A stretch of 64,000 bases of DNA. Source: Pilaira anomala (taxonomy: Eukaryota; Mucoromycota; Mucoromycetes; Mucorales; Mucoraceae). This document shows positions 4,331-19,191 of this stretch, piece by piece (positions within the stretch are counted from its first letter, which is position 1; the number at the start of each line of letters is the position of its first letter). The stretch covers positions 1-64,000 of the forward strand of contig JAIXMQ010000037.1 of the NCBI GenBank assembly GCA_025716855.1, in the 5' to 3' direction. The notes below the pieces were generated by a model. The model worked only from the letters and a program-made list of their open reading frames with translations. It had not been told where the DNA came from and ran no database searches. Position numbers and translations under genes: made by a program.

Positions 4331-6110
4331 TTTGTATTGTTGCTGTTTATTTGTAATTAGTTAATAATAAAAAAAGAAACTGTGGATTTTTGCCTCCTTT
4401 TTATACATGTTCTTTAGATGCTTTGATACTATACTATAAACGGATGCAATTCCATTTTCTTTTACACAAGATATTCTCTCTTTTTTTTTTTGTTACACGT
4501 CCTTTTGTTTTACATGTAATGTATGCATGATATTTTTTGGAATTACTACAAGTGAGATATGAACAAGAAAAAATACAGATTAATAAGCATCTGATGTATA
4601 TCTGTTCATATATGTAATTTACGGCGACTTTTTCTTCGTGAATTACATGTCTTTTAGCGTAACATTGTACAAGGCAAATTGAGAAGAATATAGTGAGAAA
4701 AGTTTATGAAGATTTTTTTTCCAAGTTACAATAGCAAAAGTAATAGGGCCTTAAAAAAATTGTTGCATTATATCCACAAAATAGGTTACAAAGTGCATCA
4801 TGTGTAATATACATAAATACGGGAGAATTAAATGTGAGTGTTTTTCTGCTATATCGTAAAGTTAGATATTATTTATAAACGTATATATAATAATATATAT
4901 TCCCAAGAAATACTGCTTATTTATTGACACGAATCCCATTTTATCTGTTTGTTTACTAAAATTAAAGAAAAACACGTACCTAATTTTAATAAGATTTTAT
5001 GTTACATTCGATCCGTACGAGTGTAACCGTACACTTTATGGAAATTTACGATGGATCATACTACTTAATTAATTCTGTGTAAAAAAAAAGGTCCTTTCTC
5101 TTCATTTTAACGTAGCATTAAAAAAGAACATGCTAGATTGAGCATGACCTGTTTGCATTAATAAATATACCTCTTTACACATACGCACGCAATTAACATA
5201 TTACTAACACGTCTATCTTTTTTGGATTCAAACTTTTTTTTTTTAAAAAAAAAAAGGTAATTGGTTCATAACTTTACTCAGATTATGGGTTTTGTATTTT
5301 TTTGTACGAGTTGAATGTTTACTTTCAGTTGAATTGACATGACAAGGGTATAAATCTATTGGTCCCACTTTTTTTTTTTTTAGCTTTGTTCATTCGAATA
5401 AGTAAACTGCATTTTAATGCTCGTACCACTCAGTTCTACTGATCGGTATGGAAAAATTCACATGTAAATACTTGAACTACATAGTCAATGTTTATAATAT
5501 GGGTAAGTTACATGTTATACTACGATCAGATCGAGTGTCAGATGACCAGAATTCCTCTGCCCTGTCCTCTGGGAGAAAAAAAAAATAATTCTGTGATTAA
5601 TTCTTTTTTCCGGATGAACTGTTCCCGGTATTATTATTATACAAAACGAGTCGTCTTGTAAAACGTTATTAAATACTAAAACAAGAATAAAAGATTTTAG
5701 TAATAAATGAATTTTTAATACAGCCCTCCGTTTTGGTATACATTATTACTAATATTCCGTTCCCATAAAAATTGTGTTTCCAAGACTAATAATAAAAAAA
5801 AAAGTTAAAAAGTACCTACATCTTTTTGATATACTATTAACTCTTCTCTGCATATAATAAATTTGTGTACACTTGTTTTGCTTTAAGCACTCTTGATCCC
5901 GGGGCATCCTTTTATTATAAGTATCCAATTTTTCAATTTAATTTGTCGAATGCGATATAAACGAGAGATGCTTATAAATCACATTACACAGAAAGGAACA
6001 AATAATGCAAAGAAATGTCTGGTCCTTTTTTTTTTAAAAGAAATTTTTTGACAGCAAGAAAAATAAAAGACAAATCAACATCTCACGAAATTACCAAAAT
6101 CAACAAAAAG
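4331..6110. other. Intergenic region, no gene seen
   Basis: About 1.8 kb of very AT-rich DNA with many poly-T and poly-A runs between the lipase promoter and the tRNA gene. I found no ORF with plausible composition, no splice-joined coding frame and no second tRNA. Confidence 0.5.
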
Positions 6111-6193
6111 TGCTGACTGTGAGATTCGAACTCACGCCTCTTGCGAGACCGCAACTTGAGTGCGGCGCCTTAGACCAACTCGGCCAAATCAGC
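6111..6193 (-). tRNA. tRNA-Leu (anticodon CAA), no intron
   Basis: Read on the minus strand the 83 bases fold as a class II tRNA. The acceptor stem pairs 5' GCTGATT with 3' AGTCAGC (one G-U type pair) with discriminator A. The D-arm region has TGGCCGAGTTGG (A box), the anticodon stem CCGCA/TGCGG encloses loop CTCAAGT giving anticodon CAA, a variable arm follows (CTCGCAAGAG), and the T arm has GAGTTCGAATCTC (B box). A long variable arm and G18G19 are as expected for leucine tRNAs. Its first 15 bases, plus one base upstream, are duplicated at 11234-11249 by insertion of the adjacent LINE. Confidence 0.95.
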
Positions 6194-6194
6194 A
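6179..6194. repeat. Left copy of 16-bp target-site duplication
   Basis: CTCGGCCAAATCAGCA, identical to 11234-11249. This copy is the 5' end of the tRNA-Leu gene plus one flanking base; the element body starts at 6195. Flanking bases differ (A at 6178, C at 11233), so the repeat is exactly 16 bases. Confidence 0.88.
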
Positions 6195-6413
6195 CTGCTC
6201 TTTCACTTTTAAAATTTTTCAAAAAATTTGAAACTCCGCATTTTTTTTTTTTTTAATTTTAGAACTATCCATCCATCTATAAAAAGTATATAGTTAGATT
6301 AAGCAACACTTTTAGAAGGTACATCCAAAAACCCCAACTCTCTATCACCTTTATTTCTCGAGATATCCGATTTTGAAAAACAACAACTTTTTTGAAATTA
6401 ACTTGAAAATAAG

Positions 6414-7532
6414 ATGAACAACCCTAATGTCGAAATGCTCCTGCAGGAACTTTCCTCCGCCATCGCAAATTTAAACTCAAAATTTGACGCCACCTCGGCC
6501 CGATATGAAACTATGATCCAGGAACTCCGTTCTGAAAATCAACGTCTCAGTAACGAAATGTCTCGCATACAATCGATTCTTAAAACTCTCCAAGGCTCTA
6601 CCCCTGGTACTGCCATGGAAATTGATGCTGCTCCCTCTGGTTCTGCTGCTAGTAAGTACAGTACTGCTACACCTATTGCTGTTCCATCCAATAAGCCTGC
6701 TACCGGTACTACTACTGTAACAAATAGTAAAAATAAACCTGTTACTACTGCTGCTGCCCCTTCTAACAACTGGGTTCAGGTTCTTAAGCGCAAGCCTAAG
6801 GCCCCCCTCTCGGATCGCAAGAAATCTGCTACTGCTCGTGCATTTTTCGCCCCATCTACTAACGACAGTAACGCCCCTACAGGTTATTGTTACGTGTACA
6901 TTCCTCGTTCACGCAACATTAACCGAAAGGATGTTCGTCATCGTTTCTCTGTTTTAGGTATTGAAACAGCTCGTGTTTTGGATATCTCGTTCCCTGCCCG
7001 ATCAGTAATTGGTGTATTACTTCATGAAGAATACAAGTCTACCTTCTTAAAGGTACTCACAGATTGTAAAGTGAAGCCTATCCAAGATTTCAACCCATGT
7101 GACCCTGTCCATATTGCTGATCCCAAGTACCAAGACTGGCCTGCTCCCCAACGTTCTCGTTTGGCTGTTGCTTTACAACAAGATAGATGTTATAATACTT
7201 TGAACTTCATCCGTGAGTATTTAGTTCCTAGTGTATCTAAATTTTTTGTAGCTCAAGCATGGATCCCTCAAGCTCTTGCCGCCAGTGTTATTCAGCACCG
7301 TCTTCCTCGTCCTGTTAAGAAGACACGTACTGAAAGCAGCTATGGTAAGTCTGCCGCCGATGAATTTGTTTCTGCTGTTGTTATTGGTGATCAAGACTGC
7401 GAAATGGGTGAAGAATTTGCAGAGAATGCGTACGATAGTGATAACAGCAATGACTCCACAACTGACGATGATGATGAAGCCCCTTGTAGTGAACAAGTTG
7501 ATCAACAGTCTCCCTCCTCTCTCTCTCAATGA
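6414..7532 (+). CDS. LINE ORF1 protein (nucleic-acid-binding, coiled coil)
   Basis: A 372-residue protein expected to bind element RNA and form the ribonucleoprotein. Residues ~5-60 (ELSSAIANLNSKFDATSARYE... and MSRIQSILKTLQG) have heptad spacing suggestive of a coiled coil. Residues ~60-145 are a low-complexity Thr/Ala/Ser/Lys linker. Residues ~160-240 (GYCYVYIPRSRNINRKDVRHRF onward) resemble a small RRM-like fold by strand/helix pattern, which is inference. The last ~60 residues are acidic (DSDNSNDSTTDDDDEAPCSE). No CCHC knuckle is visible. The stop overlaps the ORF2 start in the sequence ATGA. Confidence 0.85.
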   Translation: MNNPNVEMLLQELSSAIANLNSKFDATSARYETMIQELRSENQRLSNEMSRIQSILKTLQGSTPGTAMEIDAAPSGSAASKYSTATPIAVPSNKPATGTTTVTNSKNKPVTTAAAPSNNWVQVLKRKPKAPLSDRKKSATARAFFAPSTNDSNAPTGYCYVYIPRSRNINRKDVRHRFSVLGIETARVLDISFPARSVIGVLLHEEYKSTFLKVLTDCKVKPIQDFNPCDPVHIADPKYQDWPAPQRSRLAVALQQDRCYNTLNFIREYLVPSVSKFFVAQAWIPQALAASVIQHRLPRPVKKTRTESSYGKSAADEFVSAVVIGDQDCEMGEEFAENAYDSDNSNDSTTDDDDEAPCSEQVDQQSPSSLSQ

Positions 7533-10500
7533 TTGAGGAATACAACTACAACAATATCACGATAGGTCTTTGGAATGCTAATGGTCTCACCACTACTAGT
7601 ATCTCAGATGTCCTTTCCCACTGTCACTCCTTTACAATCCTCTTTATTACCGAAACCAAACTCCTTCCTCCTTTCCGCTTCGAATATACCAACAATTGGA
7701 CCCAATTCCATCTCTACGGCCCTCCTGTATTTGTCAATGCAAATTACAATAGAGGCTCCCAAGGAGTAATGGCTTTGGTCAATCCAAATTGTCCCGTCAC
7801 CGTCACTCATCTATTATCACCTAATCCGTACACCCTGTCTCTCCAATTTGGTAAATTGCGTATCTCCTGCCTCTATCTTCCTCCTTCTCTCTCTCTAAGT
7901 CAAGCCTTTACCGCTCTTAACTCTATACCCCTCCAGCAAGACTCAATCCTTTGTGGCGACTTTAACGCTCGTTTTCATCAGCTCTTAGGAGACGGTGATT
8001 GTAACGTTAGAGGAACTCAAATGGTTTCTTGGTGTGAAGAACGTGATCTGTCTATTCTTAATGCTACTCTAGCCTATGGTCAAGAAACATTTGCAAGAAT
8101 GATAAACAATGAAAAGCAATCAAGTATAATTGATTTATTTATTACTAATAATCCAGTTATATTACAGAATGCCTCTATGTTTGTGGATAAAAACCTGGCC
8201 CTTGGTTCTGATCACTGTGTCCTTTCTCTTACGTTTGATCTTGAAATTGATACTGCTGATACTAGAGTTATCCCTGATGCTGTAGCCCCTCGCCGCACCT
8301 GGAAATTGTCCAAACTAAAAGAATACAAACCTAGAGAATTATATAAGTCTACTTTCTTAAAAAATTCCAAAACTGTACTCACTACTTTAGATAATGCTTT
8401 ACAAGTAATCAACCATGCTCATACTACTACTGGCTCTAAACCTGACTTTGATGCTTTAAACAATTCAATTTGTACTGCTATCTACTCGGCTCTTGATACT
8501 ACTATTGGTGCTCAAAAACCAAGGCCTAAGACATGGCACAAGTACTGGACTACTGCCCTACAAGATGCTGCTGATCTTCGTAACCGTTGCTATCGTCGTT
8601 GGCGTAATGCAAATGGTATTGATAAGGTGGCTCGCTGGTCGGAATATCTCATTGCCAACAAACGTTTCCGATATGATATCCTAATTGCAAAACGTCTTTC
8701 GTGGCGCGATTATTGTCAATCAGTGGAAAACGATGTTGAAAAAGCCGTATCAATGATTAAACGCCAAAAAAGAAAACGCGAACAGTCTGGTACATTTTCT
8801 CATCCTGATGGTCCCACTGCTGCTGCTTCTGAAATGGTTGCTCATCTCGAACAGGTATACAACGGTAACTTACTCCCATCACCTCGATCTACTTTTTCTT
8901 CTTTTAGTGACAGTGACCTACCTCATGCTGTACCCGAAGATGATTCTAATACTGGTATATTTGATACTGACACCATAGAAGATCTTATTAAGGCCCTTCC
9001 ACGTCGAAAAGCTCCCGGTATTGATCACTTGCGTGCTGAAATGCTTGTCCCTATCAAGTCCCAACTTGCAATTATCTTGTCCAAGATGTTTGAACTATGT
9101 TGGTGTTGGTCAGATACGCCATCTCAATGGAGACATGCTCAAGTCTTTCCTATTTATAAGAAAGGTGACCCGGCTCTAGCATCTAACTACCGACCTATCT
9201 CGTTGACTTCTACTATTAGAAAACTATTCGAAATGGTCATCAAACCAACTGTAGAACTCTTCTCACCTCGAATTGATGTAGCTCAAGGTGGTTTCAAGAC
9301 TCAACACGCTGCACTGGATCAAGCACTCTGCCTCCATGAATTGATAAATGACTTTTACCGTCGCCACCATGACCGGTATCCAATTGTTGTTTTTCTGGAC
9401 ATTGCTATGGCATATGACTCTGTTGATCGCAATATAATTTGGAAATCTCTACAAGACACTGGAACACCTAAACCTTGGATTGGCCTGCTACAAAGTCTGT
9501 TTGACGATGTCTCCATCTCTGTACTCATTGGTAATGTTTCCTCTACTTCATTTTCACCAACAACAGGTGTACTACAAGGTTCTGTCTTAAGTCCCCTATT
9601 ATATTCTATATATATCAACACGCTGCCTGCTCTTCTCCGTGCTTATGCCTCTGCTGCTACTACCAAAATTGCCTTGCCCAATACTGACTCATCTGATGCT
9701 ACCAACTTTGAATTTACTCCCATTAATTCATTGTTATTTGCTGACGATGTAGCTATTTTTGGTACTCGTCCAGAAGTTGAAAGAATGCTACAAGCTGCTG
9801 CTGACCATTCGATCAAACTTGGTTACCGCTGGAAACCCGAGAAATGCGCTGTACTAAATCATACCACTGCTCGTTTTACCTCTGAAACACACTCGAACCC
9901 ACTCAAACTGTATGGTGTACCACTTCCTCAGGTTTCTGAATTCACCTATCTAGGCGTTCCTTTTGACAAGCGTGGTATCGACAATCGTGCTATGACTACA
10001 ATTCGTTCTCGTGGTACAATAGGTGCAATGGCTACATTACATCGTCTTGGTGCTAACCGCTCTGGCTTTTCGGTCCTTCTCAGCTCAAAACTGTATCGTA
10101 CTTTTGTCCGTCCAAAATTTGAATATGGCTTGGCCATTTCAAATTTATTCAAAAAAGATATCAAAGTTCTCGACCAGCTACAAGATCGTTGTTTGCGTCT
10201 AATGGTTGGTGGCCACCCTACTTCGTCAACTGTAGCTCTCAAACTCATGACAAACATACCATCAGTTAGCTGGCGTATTGAAGCCCTTATCACCAAGTAT
10301 TGCATTCGTTTTTCTACTCTGCCTGAAGACTGCCTCTTGAAACTGTTACAGCCTGCTCTCTCTGGTCCTTCTCTGCTTGAATCTCGTCTGAAAAAAAATC
10401 GTCTCTTCTTGTCGCTCCCGCCTGACTTTGACAGCTTCAGCCCATCTCAACTGACGCAATTTTTCTATACCGATCGCCAAAAACTACTTGATTCATTCAT

Positions 10501-10951
10501 GGAAACTACCGATCGTGTCCTGGCCAAAGCTTGTAGAAAAAAAATAGAAATTGATCCAATCCTGTATATACCTGCAACACGTACCGATCGTAGCCGTTTA
10601 CTTCGCTGGCGAATGGGCTGGTTACCCGGACGTCCTGTATCCTGTGTTTGTGACAATGACCATACTTCCCGCCGCCACTTTTCAACTATTGACTGTGATG
10701 CTATACCAAGTTCTGTTTTCGATAACCTCCCTCAGCCGCCACCTGGGGTTCATGTTATCGATTATACACTTAACTTGCTTTCAACTAATCCAAAGAATTA
10801 CTGCTCTTACTGGCCATATCTTCTTGAACTCCTCTGGTATATTGAATGCTGTATCTCTCCTACCACCAATTTCCCTGAAGATCCCGACTTTGGCTCCAAA
10901 TGGCGTATCCATTGTGCTCGTCGACCACTAGCTCCCGCTGTTTCTGACTAG
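7529..10951 (+). CDS. LINE ORF2 protein: APE endonuclease plus reverse transcriptase
   Basis: A 1140-residue polyprotein that nicks the target and copies element RNA by target-primed reverse transcription. Residues ~5-235 form an APE-like endonuclease: IGLWNANGL, FITETKL (catalytic Glu), CGDFNAR, SIIDLFITN and GSDHCVLS (catalytic Asp-His). Residues ~470-770 are the reverse transcriptase: PRRKAPGIDHL, NYRPISLTSTIRKLFE, VVFLDIAMAYDSVDR, TGVLQGSVLSPLLYSIYIN and the active-site LLFADDVAIFG. Near the C-terminus RWRMGWLPG followed by C-x-C, two His and a final Cys (~1030-1060) is a zinc-binding motif typical of several LINE clades. No RNase H domain is seen. It starts inside the last codons of ORF1, implying coupled translation. 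The frame is intact throughout. Confidence 0.95.
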   Translation: MIEEYNYNNITIGLWNANGLTTTSISDVLSHCHSFTILFITETKLLPPFRFEYTNNWTQFHLYGPPVFVNANYNRGSQGVMALVNPNCPVTVTHLLSPNPYTLSLQFGKLRISCLYLPPSLSLSQAFTALNSIPLQQDSILCGDFNARFHQLLGDGDCNVRGTQMVSWCEERDLSILNATLAYGQETFARMINNEKQSSIIDLFITNNPVILQNASMFVDKNLALGSDHCVLSLTFDLEIDTADTRVIPDAVAPRRTWKLSKLKEYKPRELYKSTFLKNSKTVLTTLDNALQVINHAHTTTGSKPDFDALNNSICTAIYSALDTTIGAQKPRPKTWHKYWTTALQDAADLRNRCYRRWRNANGIDKVARWSEYLIANKRFRYDILIAKRLSWRDYCQSVENDVEKAVSMIKRQKRKREQSGTFSHPDGPTAAASEMVAHLEQVYNGNLLPSPRSTFSSFSDSDLPHAVPEDDSNTGIFDTDTIEDLIKALPRRKAPGIDHLRAEMLVPIKSQLAIILSKMFELCWCWSDTPSQWRHAQVFPIYKKGDPALASNYRPISLTSTIRKLFEMVIKPTVELFSPRIDVAQGGFKTQHAALDQALCLHELINDFYRRHHDRYPIVVFLDIAMAYDSVDRNIIWKSLQDTGTPKPWIGLLQSLFDDVSISVLIGNVSSTSFSPTTGVLQGSVLSPLLYSIYINTLPALLRAYASAATTKIALPNTDSSDATNFEFTPINSLLFADDVAIFGTRPEVERMLQAAADHSIKLGYRWKPEKCAVLNHTTARFTSETHSNPLKLYGVPLPQVSEFTYLGVPFDKRGIDNRAMTTIRSRGTIGAMATLHRLGANRSGFSVLLSSKLYRTFVRPKFEYGLAISNLFKKDIKVLDQLQDRCLRLMVGGHPTSSTVALKLMTNIPSVSWRIEALITKYCIRFSTLPEDCLLKLLQPALSGPSLLESRLKKNRLFLSLPPDFDSFSPSQLTQFFYTDRQKLLDSFMETTDRVLAKACRKKIEIDPILYIPATRTDRSRLLRWRMGWLPGRPVSCVCDNDHTSRRHFSTIDCDAIPSSVFDNLPQPPPGVHVIDYTLNLLSTNPKNYCSYWPYLLELLWYIECCISPTTNFPEDPDFGSKWRIHCARRPLAPAVSD

Positions 10952-11095
10952 AACTAGACTTCGTCATACTGCTTTCGACTACCCACTATTACAATTTAAA
11001 CAACTTAGATGAGTAGCGTTCAGATGGCTAGTTAAATTCTTTATAGGATTTCACGTTCAAAACCTACACCTCAACCTTTTTATATTCTTTCGTTG

Positions 11096-11113
11096 CAGCT
11101 GCTTTAGCAGCTG
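11096..11113 (+). other. Perfect inverted repeat (hairpin) in LINE 3' region
   Basis: CAGCTGCTTTAGCAGCTG: two 8-base arms that are exact reverse complements around TT; in RNA it would fold as 6-7 pairs with a 4-6 base loop. It lies 145 bases after the ORF2 stop and may be a recognition element for the reverse transcriptase, as 3' stem-loops are in some LINEs. That function is inference. Confidence 0.5.
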
Positions 11114-11233
11114 AAGATTATTTTTAGTATTTTTCCTTCTTTTTTCCTACGGAGTGCAATAATGATAAAAGCAAATCGACTGCATAAACTCCCTTTATTA
11201 TTATTTCTCTTTTTAATAAACTAAATCTTTCAC

Positions 11234-11249
11234 CTCGGCCAAATCAGCA
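11234..11249. repeat. Right copy of 16-bp target-site duplication
   Basis: Identical to 6179-6194. It marks the 3' end of the LINE and the point where pre-insertion DNA upstream of the tRNA-Leu gene resumes. Confidence 0.88.
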
Positions 11250-13113
11250 TTAGATGATTATTTTAATTATAAAATAATATTTATATTAAATTTTAAAATA
11301 AAATCATCACGTGACAAACACGTGACTGAAGTTAGGCTCCTTTTGGGATTTATGCAAATATTTAAAGTAACTTTTTGATGTATCTCGTAATGATTCACGG
11401 GTTTGGAGAGAAATATTACAATGGTTTATTATTTCAATTGTCTGCTGTCATACAAAAAACAATAACTAATCATAGATCAAATTTTGTAATGGTAAGATAA
11501 CTGTAAGAGAAAATGTATTTAAAAGTAATAACAACGATAAATGAAAATATTGCATGTCTGATCTAATTTAAACAAACAAAAAAAAAGGATATCATTGTAT
11601 TACAAAAGAAAATTTGAAGGTAAATTCAGAGATTGAAACAATGAACAGGTAGAAATTAAAAGAACAATACTCTGGATATTAAATAGGTGAAATATTTGAT
11701 ACGGTGATATTTATAATGAGAGATAATGATGATTGAAGATTACCTAGATTCTTTTGATAAATAAATAGAATGTAAATGCTTAAAATGTCATAGGTATTGT
11801 TATAGTGTTTGATTTTGTCGTGCATTACACATCCAAAAGACAACATAAAAATATTCTTTCGCATTATTCAAAACTACTTTTTTTGTCATTCTTACAAAAT
11901 AGATATACCTGAATTTAATACTAGATATATATTCATACTAGTATGAACGGGGAAAGAACTTACAATTGTAATTTCGTGTTTTATTATTTTAAATCTTTTT
12001 CGATTTTTTAACAGCTTCTTTTTTTCTATTTTGAGATGATGTTTTAGTTCGACGTTTTCTAGTAGTAGTAGGCTTTACGACGATATCATCTTCATCATCA
12101 TCATAATCATCCTGGTAACGGACAAGAATCATAGCCATAATTGTTAACATTAAATAATCGTCATCTAACATCATAGCTACAAGAAATAAGATTAAAAGTT
12201 CCTCGTCTTCTTCGAAAATAGCGTTGAGCGTTCTTGGAGCCATGGAAAAATAACTAGGTTTTGTATAGATAAATAAAAAAATAAAAAGGGAGAAATATTT
12301 GTTGATTTTGAACTTAAATTAAAAAGTTTGATTTCAGAGAATGTATTGTGAAGGGCAAAACTCTGTGATGCATGAAATATGGCATAGTTGCAGCCGATAC
12401 CATAATATGCGTCTATTCAGTAGCACAAAAGTCTAACCTATAAAAAGGAAAAATCACCTAGTTGAACTCATTGACTGTCAAGTACATAAATCAATTGGTA
12501 GATTAAAATGATACAAGGCTTGAAGTTGTTCCTATTATTAAAATAATTCAGTGAATGAAGGATGTATGGCTCAACTTATAAATTATTATAATACAGAAAT
12601 AATAATTTGTTGTCAATGTATAAACAAACAATACATTTATTGATGTTGTTGGTTATTTAATAATCTAGATATATATACATACTGATTCATCATTATCTTG
12701 TATCGATATCCTACAGCTAAATACAAATTGATCAGATCGAACCCTGCAAAACCAATACATTTTAAACTGAGTAAAATCCCTTTAAATTTCAAATATACAT
12801 AGATATTAAATTACAAATAATCGCAGAATTCGTCAGGTACCATAACCGTGTTGTCTCCGAGTACAAAGAAACATTCATATGATTCTCGATTTTTATTAAA
12901 GCAACAGAATTATATCAAAATGCCCACCAGTTACTGGTTATAAAAAATCTGGAACCGATTTTGAAAGATATATGAATTAAATTTAGAAACCTTCAGGTTT
13001 TACTTTTTTTTTTTTTCTAATGATTATTAAGATTTCTTTTATTTTATTTGACTCCCTTACGTCTTTCTTTTTTTAAAAAAAAACTTGTTTTTAAATACTG
13101 GAAAAAAAAAAGC
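11250..13113. other. Intergenic region with one doubtful small ORF
   Basis: AT-rich DNA that before the LINE insertion was the upstream flank of the tRNA-Leu gene. It contains the small minus-strand ORF described at 11989-12243 and nothing else I can support; the last ~100 bases are the promoter of the MFS gene. Confidence 0.45.
11989..12243 (-). CDS. Small hypothetical protein, acidic N-half and basic tail
   Basis: An 84-residue ORF starting MAPRTLNAIFEEDEELL. The first half alternates acidic clusters with hydrophobic Leu/Met/Ile runs (LILFLVAMMLDDDYLML), then an Asp-rich stretch (DDYDDDEDDIVV) and a Lys/Arg/Ser/Thr tail resembling a nuclear localisation signal (RKRRTKTSSQNRKKEAVKKSKK). The biased ends and clean ATG context make it more convincing than neighbouring ORFs. 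The N-terminal half has a general resemblance to the start of PIF/Harbinger-type transposases, but no DDE domain follows. I do not recognise it; it could be a relic exon or a small gene. Confidence 0.35.
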   Translation of the reverse strand: MAPRTLNAIFEEDEELLILFLVAMMLDDDYLMLTIMAMILVRYQDDYDDDEDDIVVKPTTTRKRRTKTSSQNRKKEAVKKSKKI

Positions 13114-16911: not shown

Positions 16912-19191
16912 CTAATGATGGTATGTAGATTTGACAGTTTCAACAAATGTACGAATCTTATTTAAATCTTTAACACCATCCGTTTCAACGCCAGAAGAAA
17001 CATCCACTATCCAAGGTTTAGCTTGATGAATAGCAGAAGCTACGTTGCTAGGATCAAGTCCACCAGCCAAAATAATAGGGAAATCCTTGTTACCCAAAAA
17101 TTCAAATTGTTTATGATTAACAATATCTCTTGCAATTGCCCAATCAAATGGAACACCTTGTCCACCTTGTCTATCAGAAGGTAAACTAGCTACCTTAGCA
17201 TCCAAAAGAACATATTGATGACTACCAGGTTGAGTATAATTTGGCATTTGAGCACGTTTATAACTGAAATTATCTATATGGAATGCCTTGATAACTGGTA
17301 CTGGTAAATATCTAGCTAATTCAACTGATTCAGTACCATGTAATTGAATGATATCTAATCCAACATCCAAAGCGACTTGTGTCATGTATTCAATACTTTG
17401 ATTCACAAACACACCAACAACCAAAGGTTTTCTTTTACGTGCTTCTAATAATTGACGATGCATTTGAAACCAATCCGCAGTTTTAACCATAGGTGATTTA
17501 GAAGGTCTTGAAATATTTAATTCTCTTACAGATTTAACAATTTCTGTGGCTGTTTCTAAAGAGACTTTACGTTTGGATTTCTCTGCAAAGATAAGTCCAA
17601 TTAAATCAGCACCGGCATTGGCTGCAACCACAGCAGCTTCTACGGATGAAATACCACATACTTTCACAAGTGATTGTTTTGGTTCCTTTGGTAAAGGTAC
17701 TGGATTTTTCTTTTCAAATCCAAGCAATTCAGTAACAAATTCTTTCAAGTTCCAAGCACGCATCAATGCTTCACCTACAAGTACACCCTTCACGCCTTGC
17801 TTTACATACATTTCCACATCGGCTCTACCTGTGATACCAGAAAGTGCACATAAAATAGTTCCTTCAGGTACCATCTCAGCCAAGCGAGAAGTAGTTTCCA
17901 TATCCACATCAAAACTATGTAAATTACGATTATTCACACCAATCAATTTCGATCCTAAAGCATTTGCACGAGCCATTTCTTCTGCATTGTTTACTTCAAC
18001 TAAAGGTTCCATACCAAGACTCTTTGCGTAATCGTATAATTCACGCAACACAGGTTGAGTCAACATAGCTACAATCAATAAGACTGTATCTGCACCATAC
18101 AATCTTGCTTCTAAAATTTGATACTTGTCTACAATGAAATCCTTTCTCAACACACAGGGACGGTTAGGTAAATCGTTAAATGACTCACGCACTTGAAGCA
18201 TATCATGGATAGTACCACGGAACCATTTAGGTTCAGTCAAGACAGAGACAACACTTGCACCAGCTAATGCGTACTGTAAGGCTTGTTCAGCTGCATTCAC
18301 AGTGGCATCAATATTTCCTTTGGAAGGAGAGGCTCGCTTTACTTCAGCTAAAAGAGCAGGTGTAGATTGATTTAATCGAGCAACAACATCAGCAAGTGGT
18401 GGAGCTACATGCAAAGATAAGAGTTTTTCCAAATCGAGCATACTTTGTCCTGGAATTTCTTGAGCGGCCTGAACGTCCTTGACACGTTGAGCATAAATAC
18501 GAGTCAAGATAGAAGGTGCATCACTTGTAGTCTTGGTTTCAACATTATTCTCTTGAGAGGGTTCACGTACTACTTTATGAGGTAAAATACCCGCACTTGG
18601 GTTCTCTACCCAACTACCTCCATTCAATGATAAAAAGTTGGCAATCATCGTATGTCCATTTTCACACAAGATACTTTCAGGATGGAATTGAAGTCCTTCT
18701 ACAGTGAATTCCTTATGACGAACACCCATAATTACACCATCGTCGGTGGTTGCCGTGACCTCTAAACTGTCAGGAATGGTCGAAGGAACACCGGCCAAGG
18801 AATGGTAACGAGTTACAAGATTGTTTTGAGGAACAGACTTAAATAATCCTCGACTGTCGTGCTTGATAGGTGAGGTTTTACCATGAATAATATCACCTGC
18901 GTATGATACAGTACCGCCATACACTTCAAACATACATTGCATACCCATACAAATACCAAGAATAGGTAATTTACCAGCGAAATGGGAGATGGCTGCACGA
19001 GAAATACCTGCATCCGTTGAAGGGTGACCTGGTCCAGGTGAGACTACAATGTTACGTGGTGAAAGCTTCTCAATTTCTTCTATCGTAATTTTATCATTAC
19101 GGTAGACAACTACATCAGCTCCTTGAGAACACAAGTATTGATATACATTGTAAGTGAAACTGTCATAATTGTCGATTAATAAGGTTGTCAT
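16912..19191 (-). CDS. TRP1: Trifunctional tryptophan enzyme: GATase / indole-3-glycerol-phosphate synthase / PRA isomerase
   Basis: A 759-residue fusion for three steps of tryptophan synthesis. Residues ~1-195: glutamine amidotransferase of anthranilate synthase (component II), with VSPGPGHP, nucleophile Cys81 in GICMGMQ and the His170/Glu172 pair in QFHPES. Residues ~220-490: IGP synthase, with [40 protein letters not shown] and [10 protein letters not shown]. Residues ~510-755: phosphoribosylanthranilate isomerase, with [12 protein letters not shown] (catalytic Cys), [15 protein letters not shown] and [10 protein letters not shown]. This G-C-F order is the usual fungal one (TRP1/trpC); ascomycete yeasts have a separate TRP1. 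Single exon, no disruption. An upstream poly-A tract of ~22 bases (19239-19260) lies in the promoter region. Confidence 0.97.

Follow-up and report, generated by a model that had tools for sequence, protein, structure and literature searches.

According to the available parts of the papers cited here, the TRE5 elements of Dictyostelium insert about 40-54 bp upstream of tRNA genes and the TRE3 elements 40-150 bp downstream, both with oligo(A) tails (PMC5911963). The non-LTR element Dp_NLTR-A of Dictyostelium purpureum sits upstream of the mature tRNA sequence at a distance of 2-6 bp, and the accessible portion of its description makes no mention of an intra-tRNA duplication (PMC5006619). NeSL-1_TV and the planarian LIN15_SM and LIN25_SM are non-LTR elements specific for tRNA-Pro, -Arg and -Glu genes (PMC4640811), and several lineages of Dada DNA transposons insert at tRNA nt 8-13, with putative 6-bp duplications there (PMC8869645). 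In Mucor, Grem-LINE1 is pericentric and carries zf-RVT, and the word tRNA is absent from the main text of that paper as far as it was available (PMC7377519), while Ty3-like LTR elements of Rhizopus oryzae are said to often co-localise with tRNA genes (PMC2699053).

The window (the whole stretch of 64,000 nucleotides of Pilaira anomala DNA that was analysed) contains a complete LINE next to a tRNA-Leu(CAA) gene. Together with its relatives elsewhere in the genome, it very probably represents an APE-type LINE with an L1-like ORF2 that integrates, in a Mucorales host, at one intra-tRNA site, namely the A box of the internal Pol III promoter. Searches of the open-access literature turned up no fungal LINE of this type.

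The element in the window

The element and the tRNA are arranged head-to-head (Table 1), and the LINE is flanked by an exact 16-bp direct repeat (CTCGGCCAAATCAGCA), whose positions, both on direct reading and in an exact repeat search, are precisely those given in the original prediction. The reading of this repeat as the first 15 bases of tRNA-Leu(CAA) plus one base agrees with the tRNA placement by ARAGORN and Rfam, and a full tRNA-Leu(CAA) is detected. The insertion had been placed at the start of the tRNA; it is true that the duplication restores the 5' end, but the cut lies inside the tRNA, at nt 14/15 of the tRNA-sense strand. When both flanks of the LINE in this genome are joined in silico, a normal tRNA promoter region is obtained. 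A copy at tRNA-Leu(AAG) on C35 is 99.3% identical to the window LINE.

Table 1. Features of the LINE and its target tRNA (window coordinates)
Feature	Position	Strand	Remarks
Target tRNA-Leu(CAA), intact	6110-6193 (ARAGORN) / 6111-6193 (Rfam RF00005, 57.6 bits)	-	
Left copy of the 16-bp target-site duplication	6179-6194		tRNA nt 15 to nt 1 plus one upstream base
Complete LINE, 5039 bp	6195-11233	+	
5' UTR	6195-6413	+	starts CTGCTCTTTCAC; related 5' UTRs present genome-wide
ORF1, 372 aa	6414-7532	+	open frame
ORF2, 1140 aa	7529-10951	+	open frame; APE endonuclease and reverse transcriptase
3' UTR	10952-11233	+	final bases CTAAATCTTTCAC, without poly(A)
Right copy of the target-site duplication	11234-11249		
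Former tRNA promoter region, displaced 5 kb by the insertion	11250-11330		CACGTG at 11308 and 11319

Both reading frames are intact, as had been predicted, and the end of ORF1 and the start of ORF2 share 4 nt (ATGA). In a Pfam search, ORF2 matched PF14529/PF03372 (N-terminal APE; PF03372 slightly under its own cut-off), followed by PF00078 (reverse transcriptase), with no match to PF13966 (zf-RVT) up to E = 1. Elements of the RLE type (NeSL, R2) have a restriction-like endonuclease downstream of the RT and no APE, whereas by this Pfam search ORF2 does contain an APE. The best solved relative of ORF2 is human LINE-1 ORF2p (profile positions 8-801, E 2e-45), and L1 ranks above R2 among the solved structures. 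As judged from this sequence similarity, the element is an APE-type, L1-like LINE, and target-site duplications and 5' truncated copies are present, as in other LINEs of that type.

The ORF1 model (mean pLDDT 67.7) has a long N-terminal coiled-coil-like helix, followed by a beta-alpha-beta-beta-alpha segment and a helical one. In a fold search, nothing matched this model at E <= 0.001, the best E being 0.021; a probability of 0.95-0.96 was reached by three DbpA chains, but with an E of 0.36-0.49, the part matched presumably being the RNA-binding domain of DbpA. An RNA-binding, RRM-like fold of ORF1 is thus only suggested by the model.

Junctions across the genome

The genome is a single Mucorales draft (34.25 Mb, 225 contigs), close to Helicostylum, Thamnidium and Mucor hiemalis, and the census of copies is partial, with 40 and 42 of 130 candidates scored in the ORF2 searches. 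The junction count covers 35 related copies of several subfamilies with a readable 3' end; outside it stand copies without a readable 3' tail (C136, C182, two C70 copies, C44, C89, C94) and copies interrupted by a contig end (C97b, C59b, C90, C68b, C156 and a copy starting near C54:1430). A scan of viral_contigs gave no confirmed relative.

At 27 of the 35 3' ends, a reverse-complemented tRNA 5' end adjoins the element, with the cut at nt 14/15, inside the A box. Among these, 25 junctions match over 14/14 nt, one over 13/14, and one has a shorter duplication. Counted by threshold, 26/35 junctions agree with the reverse complement of nt 1-14 of a tRNA from the same genome at 12 or more of the 14 positions; the C97a junction matches over its first 11 nt, and the matching tRNA-Phe stands at the 5' end of that copy. 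The test used 23 tRNA heads, of which three were added later, two of them (a second Ala, and Asp) sought because of the junctions; before this addition, a match run of at least 10 nt was present in 22/35 junctions versus 1/14,229 neighbouring positions. The tail ends were set after the sequences had been seen, and since an A-box pattern served to define the tRNA heads, T8, G10 and A14 are constant partly by construction. Tails end in AAAC, CACC, CATC, AACC, AGCC or AATC (AAAT in C13), in no case with poly(A).

The 5' ends lead to the same nucleotide. A search with the 5' UTR of a single subfamily gave 15 hits, comprising 12 5' ends and 3 inner halves of interrupted copies; nine of the 12 adjoin tRNA genes (Lys twice, Phe, Ile, Leu three times, Trp, Thr), starting no more than about 10 bp away, and the other three adjoin a partial tRNA that a stacked copy has left behind. 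Site specificity for tRNA genes, guessed from one copy in the original prediction, therefore holds across the genome in the survey of flanks that it had proposed (12/12 5' ends, 27/35 3' ends). Eleven isotypes serve as targets, and nearly identical copies occupy different ones: C1 (Lys) and C97a (Phe) are 99.5% identical, C192b (Thr) and C158 (Trp) 99.8-99.9%. The tRNA-Lys(TTT) adjoining C1 has the same sequence as a copy of this gene that is unoccupied. Moreover, the C192a duplication was of the Thr type, so that a tRNA-Thr was expected upstream of an inserted transposon, and it was found at C192:96159-96231 with the element 5' end on it. For C158, the tRNA at C158:130566 had already been listed before the isotype (Trp) was known, which falls short of a blind prediction.

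CACGTG is located upstream of 49/54 unoccupied tRNA genes and stands at the same distance past the 3' duplication. Of 1882 tRNA candidates, 63 were scored in the Rfam search and 61 listed; among those listed, a LINE begins on four tRNA genes (C1, C84, C97, C158) and about 23 bp from a fifth (C143), the case of C183:116285 being ambiguous.

Sites without a tRNA, the finding that would have spoken against specificity, were seen for three of the 35 copies (C145, C181, C172), which have target-site duplications at non-tRNA sites, are 5' truncated and are 75-86% identical to the copies used to find them. Five further copies are uncertain: C46 and C67 match no tRNA (C67 nonetheless has CACGTG at 84/95), C143 and C183 match none of the tRNA heads used, and C75 matches a tRNA-like stretch only. 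In C143, C183 and C112 the upstream tRNA disagrees with the copy's own 3' duplication. Several other assignments were rejected. The tRNA-Asp at C160:715810 has no element end in its upstream flank and was dismissed as the target of the C160 copy, and C182 with its tRNA-Ile was excluded, the flank beside the tRNA resembling an ordinary promoter. Where adjoining copies in a stack belong to different subfamilies or are truncated differently (C193, C148, C59), duplication of the locus was discarded as the origin of the stack.

Proposed integration cycle and alternative explanations

In the proposed cycle, the ORF2 endonuclease opens the tRNA-sense strand with a nick at nt 14/15, most likely after the conserved A14. 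In tRNAs with G15, cuts after 14 and 15 are indistinguishable; a cut after G15 was the first reading, but tRNAs with A15 pointed to A14 instead. The freed 3' end would prime reverse transcription of the element RNA, which ends in a short conserved tail, and the second strand would be cut around tRNA nt 1 (nt 4 to nt -2 across the copies seen). Because the resulting duplication would carry the tRNA 5' end, one side keeps a whole tRNA, with the element head-to-head against it. The rebuilt tRNA usually survives and is again a target, so that later copies may land between it and the earlier copy, forming stacks. Positions, duplications, orientation, stacking, whole tRNAs and 5' truncation on tRNA sites (C59a, C193a, C148a/b) are directly observed; we infer the identity of the site-recognising protein, the order of the cuts and present activity.

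Alternatively, the Pol III machinery bound at tRNA genes (TFIIIC/TFIIIB) could be the main guide to the site, a mechanism that has been put forward for TRE5-A and Ty3, and the endonuclease would then exert only a weak sequence preference. The targets are indeed Pol III genes, eleven isotypes with different acceptor stems are used, and in the part of the source available, TRE5-A ORF1 binds TFIIIB and box-B mutations abolish TRE5-A targeting (PMC5911963). However, the cut falls at one nucleotide rather than in a window, lineages in the ORF2 tree mostly stay with one A-box variant (C97b and C143 being exceptions), and the cut context is TCA^A at two of the three off-target sites and GTC^A at the third, which makes this explanation rather unlikely, although it is possible that docking on Pol III factors and sequence reading act jointly. 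The tendency of lineages to keep similar A boxes would also fit pairing of the RNA 3' end with the nicked tRNA strand, where read-through tRNA sequence from the donor 3' flank helps to pick a target with the same A box. In line with this, 34/35 tails as delimited end in C (C13: T); at A15 tRNAs (Ala, Glu, Trp) this C is absent from the target and must therefore come from the element. Nevertheless, the near-identical copies at Lys/Phe and Thr/Trp show that pairing need not extend past the GCTCA core, and such guidance is considered doubtful.

Two further explanations have very little probability. The association could reflect selective loss of other insertions from a gene-dense genome, for which the truncated, diverged state of the off-target copies could speak, but loss cannot put 27/35 junctions at the same tRNA nucleotide, a precision that excludes it as sole cause, nor does it account for stacks using the same site again. 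An equally improbable assembly artefact, in which unrelated repeats are joined through short tRNA-like words, would be in keeping with the draft state of the 225 contigs, several of which end inside copies, and with three copies having mismatched ends; against it stand copies whose two ends both bear the matching tRNA and duplication and which are located within contigs C157 (314 kb), C35 (679 kb) and C1 (1.3 Mb), as well as the displaced promoter motif at the right distance.

Beyond A-box integration by the window element, it seems reasonably likely that the Pol III A box is the target read by an entire radiation of APE-type LINEs in Mucorales, with lineages that have switched between A-box variants (GCTCA, GCCGA, GTATA, GTTAA, GTCCA) but kept the cut at nt 14/15. 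As each insertion rebuilds its target, tRNA genes would then be reusable, self-renewing landing pads, with stacks recording the order of insertion.

Comparison with known systems

Fungi, and the A box itself, join the few known cases of LINEs using tRNA genes. Whether an APE endonuclease locates tRNA genes via DNA reading or via docking on Pol III factors becomes a testable question, for which the cut common to eleven isotypes and the few off-target sites as variants are natural material. Stacks could be used for relative dating. For safe gene placement, an enzyme able to insert into tRNA genes and still leave them whole is of interest.

TRE5 and TRE3 resemble the LINE described here in being APE-type elements with ORF1 and ORF2 that are associated with tRNA genes, and TRE5 also lies in opposite orientation to the tRNA. 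The comparison with TRE elements made in the original prediction nevertheless stands as an analogy only, since position and tail differ: the P. anomala LINE lacks poly(A) and cuts inside the A box, outside the TRE insertion distances, with nine 5' ends within about 10 bp; only that of C143 is farther away, by about 23 bp from its tRNA. As far as the available descriptions go, Dp_NLTR-A is the nearest in position, but it carries RNase H, is only distant kin of the TREs and has a non-fungal host. Likewise, NeSL-1_TV, LIN15_SM and LIN25_SM belong to the NeSL-related restriction-like endonuclease lineage with one isotype each as described, in contrast to APE and eleven isotypes here. Grem-LINE1 is also an L1-like LINE of Mucoromycotina, but is set apart by the zf-RVT in its available description, for which the P. 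anomala ORF2 gave no Pfam match. The Ty3-like elements of R. oryzae come from the same fungal order, but are LTR elements, and for LINEs the accessible text gives amounts only (PMC2699053). Dada elements, finally, are DNA transposons, yet on their available description they use the same A box, which represents a convergence with the P. anomala LINE.

The window copy

As the original prediction of an intact element had it, the LINE in the window has both ORF1 (372 aa) and ORF2 (1140 aa) open, the two overlapping at ATGA. Its target-site duplication, CTCGGCCAAATCAGCA, corresponds to nt 15 to 1 of tRNA-Leu(CAA) plus one base upstream, which bears out the claim made for it. ORF2 contains APE endonuclease and reverse transcriptase domains; human LINE-1 ORF2p is its best solved relative, and its close relatives with organism names are from Rhizopus, Mucor, Phycomyces, Cokeromyces and Dichotomocladium. 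The element ends in CTAAATCTTTCAC, without a poly(A) tail. A copy on another contig (C35) is 99.3% identical but, unlike the window copy, has an interrupted ORF2; together with a 99.5% pair (C1 and C97a; suffixes denote separate copies on one contig), these identities suggest recent movement. The Trp1 protein encoded nearby is 85-87% identical to its homologues in Helicostylum pulchrum, Thamnidium elegans and Mucor hiemalis, which together with the ORF2 relatives places the genome in the Mucorales.

Features of the LINE copies and their target sites (C157 is the contig whose bases 1-64000 form the window; other C numbers are other contigs)
Feature	Location	Detail
LINE window copy	6195-11233	between two exact target-site duplication copies
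Target-site duplication copies	6179-6194, 11234-11249	exact
CACGTG pair	window 11308-11324	beyond 3' duplication
Trp1 protein	16912-19191	near LINE
LINE stack	C157 far end, 306279-314245	two copies with tRNA-Ala fragments, Ala/Ala
LINE stack	C192	Thr/Thr
LINE stack	C193	Ala/Ala/Ala
LINE stack	C144	Gly/Gly
LINE stack	C148	His/His
LINE 5' end	C1	tRNA-Lys(TTT)
LINE 5' end	C84	tRNA-Lys(TTT)
LINE 5' end	C97	tRNA-Phe
LINE 5' end	C174	tRNA-Ile (ARAGORN, below Rfam cut-off)
LINE 5' end	C217	tRNA-Leu(AAG)
LINE 5' end	C35	tRNA-Leu(AAG)
LINE 5' end	C157 (window copy)	tRNA-Leu(CAA)
LINE 5' end	C158	tRNA-Trp
LINE 5' end	C192	tRNA-Thr
tRNA-Trp	C158:130566-130638	bears missing LINE 5' end
tRNA-Thr	C192:96159-96231	with LINE 5' end
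Chimeric tRNA	C112 (segment L031:5500-5572)	tRNA-Gly(TCC) first 14 nt on tRNA-Pro(AGG) body
LINE derivative	C13:159230-160010	tRNA-Ala fragment at 3' end
CACTA-like ends in LINE 5' UTR	C158 ~130687-132840	
CACTA-like ends in LINE 5' UTR	C84 ~17447	
CACTA-like ends in LINE 5' UTR	C192 ~96288-98226	
CACTA-like ends in LINE 5' UTR	C141 ~1043	
CACTA-like ends in LINE 5' UTR	C85 ~17480	
A-box variant GCTCA		Phe, Lys, Thr, Trp, Ala
A-box variant GCCGA		Leu
A-box variant GTATA		His, Asp
A-box variant GTTAA		Gly
A-box variant GTCCA		Glu

Genome-wide junctions at tRNA genes

ORF2 searches of the draft assembly (34,252,262 bases, 225 contigs) gave at least 46 and at least 48 matches (40 and 42 of 130 candidates scored), and truncated copies were added through six 3'-UTR searches. 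In this partial census of one draft genome 35 3' junctions were read, of which 26 match a reverse-complemented tRNA head of this genome (nt 14 to 1) in at least 12 of 14 nt (14/14 at 25 junctions, 13/14 at C160). At C97a, whose duplication is shorter, the match ceases after 11 nt; the corresponding tRNA-Phe stands at the 5' end of the copy. Including this copy, 27 of the 35 junctions lie at tRNA heads, which supports the suggested site specificity. Tail ends were placed after the sequences were inspected, and an A-box pattern served to define the heads. The 23 heads finally compared include three that joined the set only later than the first pass. Two of them, a second tRNA-Ala and tRNA-Asp, had been sought because of LINE junctions and were confirmed by tRNA genes at 5 and 6 loci. 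Without the three, 22/35 junctions showed an uninterrupted match of 10 nt or more in the first pass, versus 1/14,229 neighbouring positions. Across all extracted segments on both strands, junctions and tRNA genes included, 12/14 was reached at 59/386,102 positions.

Sites without a tRNA, which the original prediction had named as evidence against targeting, do occur at 3 of the 35 junctions, with duplications of 10 bp (C145), 14 bp (C181) and 13 bp (C172). Three further junctions (C143, C183, C67) match none of the 23 heads (C143 has scattered 11/14 matches to tRNA-Glu), and carry CACGTG 74-95 bp from the cut, a distance typical of tRNA promoter regions. C75 repeats on its 3' side a tRNA-like sequence from its own 5' side (below the Rfam cut-off), and one junction (C46) is assigned to neither class.

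The C1 copy's 5' UTR, used as query, gave 15 matches: 12 are 5' ends, and three (C192, C158, C141) are inner halves of copies into which another transposon has inserted. Of the 12, which were picked on 5'-UTR likeness, not tRNA proximity, nine start at a tRNA gene, all in opposite orientation to it; the other three (C59b, C97b, C192b) contact a tRNA fragment that an adjacent copy left as its 3' duplication. Further copies on tRNAs are C59a (Thr), C193a (Ala), C148a (His), C85 (Glu) and C156 (Gly). Among the tRNA genes listed by the Rfam search, 4 of 61 carry a LINE 5' end. The two ends of one copy agree in 11 cases (window, C35, C97a, C1, C59a, C193a, C148a, C85, C158, C192a and, by its tRNA-like site, C75), and in three (C143, C183, C112) the upstream tRNA and the 3' duplication derive from different tRNAs, a mismatch due either to misassembly or to ectopic recombination among the copies.

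A CACT...AGTG transposon interrupts the 5' UTR in both C158 and C192a. In C158 the 3' duplication is tRNA-Trp, and the tRNA bearing the missing 5' end had been listed before its isotype was known; in C192a the duplication is Thr, and the corresponding tRNA-Thr was subsequently located. The interrupting elements, named from their end motif, resemble CACTA DNA transposons. Those of C158, C84, C192 and C141 lie within or next to the same 5'-UTR T-run, and the flanks in C158 and C192 are compatible with 3-bp duplications.

In the upstream regions (81-200 bp each) of 54 tRNA genes at which no LINE end was recognised, CACGTG, possibly a bHLH motif associated with Pol III genes, is present in 49; in 34 there are two copies spaced by 11 bp, mostly at ~60 and ~71 bp from the gene. 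A search of the open PMC literature found nothing on such a motif. Five LINE-occupied tRNA genes (C84, C158, C192, C217, C174) have no CACGTG upstream, and the motif lies past the 3' duplication at a corresponding distance, 73/84 bp from the cut in the window and 75/86 bp in C35, C1 and C144; joining the window flanks places it upstream of the tRNA, at 65 and 76 bp. Four of five second-type tRNA-Ala(AGC) genes have no CACGTG, nor do three unstacked LINE flanks at tRNA-Ala (C157b, C13, C193c).

Cut position, stacks and the state of the tRNAs

In tRNAs with G15, cuts after nt 14 and after nt 15 are indistinguishable. At A15 tRNAs (Ala, Trp, Glu) the element side has C where the target has T (C193a, C158, C85); this C, being absent from the target, is part of the element, which puts the start of the duplication at nt 14. 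C13, at tRNA-Ala, has T in place of the tail C. ORF2-tree lineages mostly track A-box variants, the exceptions being C97b, which sits in a Phe stack with an ORF2 closer to the Leu copies, and C143 (GTCTA), which groups with a His copy. C1 and C97a lie at Lys and Phe, and C192b (Thr) and C158 (Trp) are 99.8-99.9% identical; near-identical copies at different isotypes thus indicate that only the A-box core is needed. Off-target cuts are TCA^A (C145, C181) and GTC^A (C172).

The tRNA fragments agree in every stack with at least two 3' ends seen, because the duplication rebuilds the target; C97 (Phe) and C59 (Thr) are also stacks, their outer 3' end being lost at the contig end. The youngest copy should be the one nearest the tRNA. 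The tRNAs next to C1 and C143 are identical to paralogues (unoccupied in the case of C1), and that next to C97a differs solely in the last base listed. The chimeric tRNA of C112 adjoins a LINE 5' end and scores 41.3 bits in Rfam versus 55 for the tRNA-Pro of C192; it is possibly a LINE-mediated head swap. The C13 derivative has its 5' UTR fused straight to the ORF2 end and, to judge from this structure, may be a non-autonomous form.

Proposed mechanism and known systems

Site, orientation, duplication, truncation and stacking of the copies are directly observed. As for the mechanism, the ORF2 endonuclease would make the first nick, target-primed reverse transcription would then follow, and a second cut would fall near tRNA nt 1. 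Target choice by reading of the DNA sequence is more likely than guidance by Pol III factors on their own, but the two may act jointly.

In searches of open PMC papers no tRNA-targeting LINE in a fungus was found. The Lichtheimia corymbifera genome paper, in its available part, names non-LTR elements without linking them to tRNA genes. The tRNA co-localisation reported for Rhizopus oryzae (PMC2699053, available part) concerns Ty3-like LTR elements, whereas the elements described here are LINEs. In the table of a 2018 review (PMC5911963, likewise in part), the non-LTR elements at tRNA genes are dictyostelid only.
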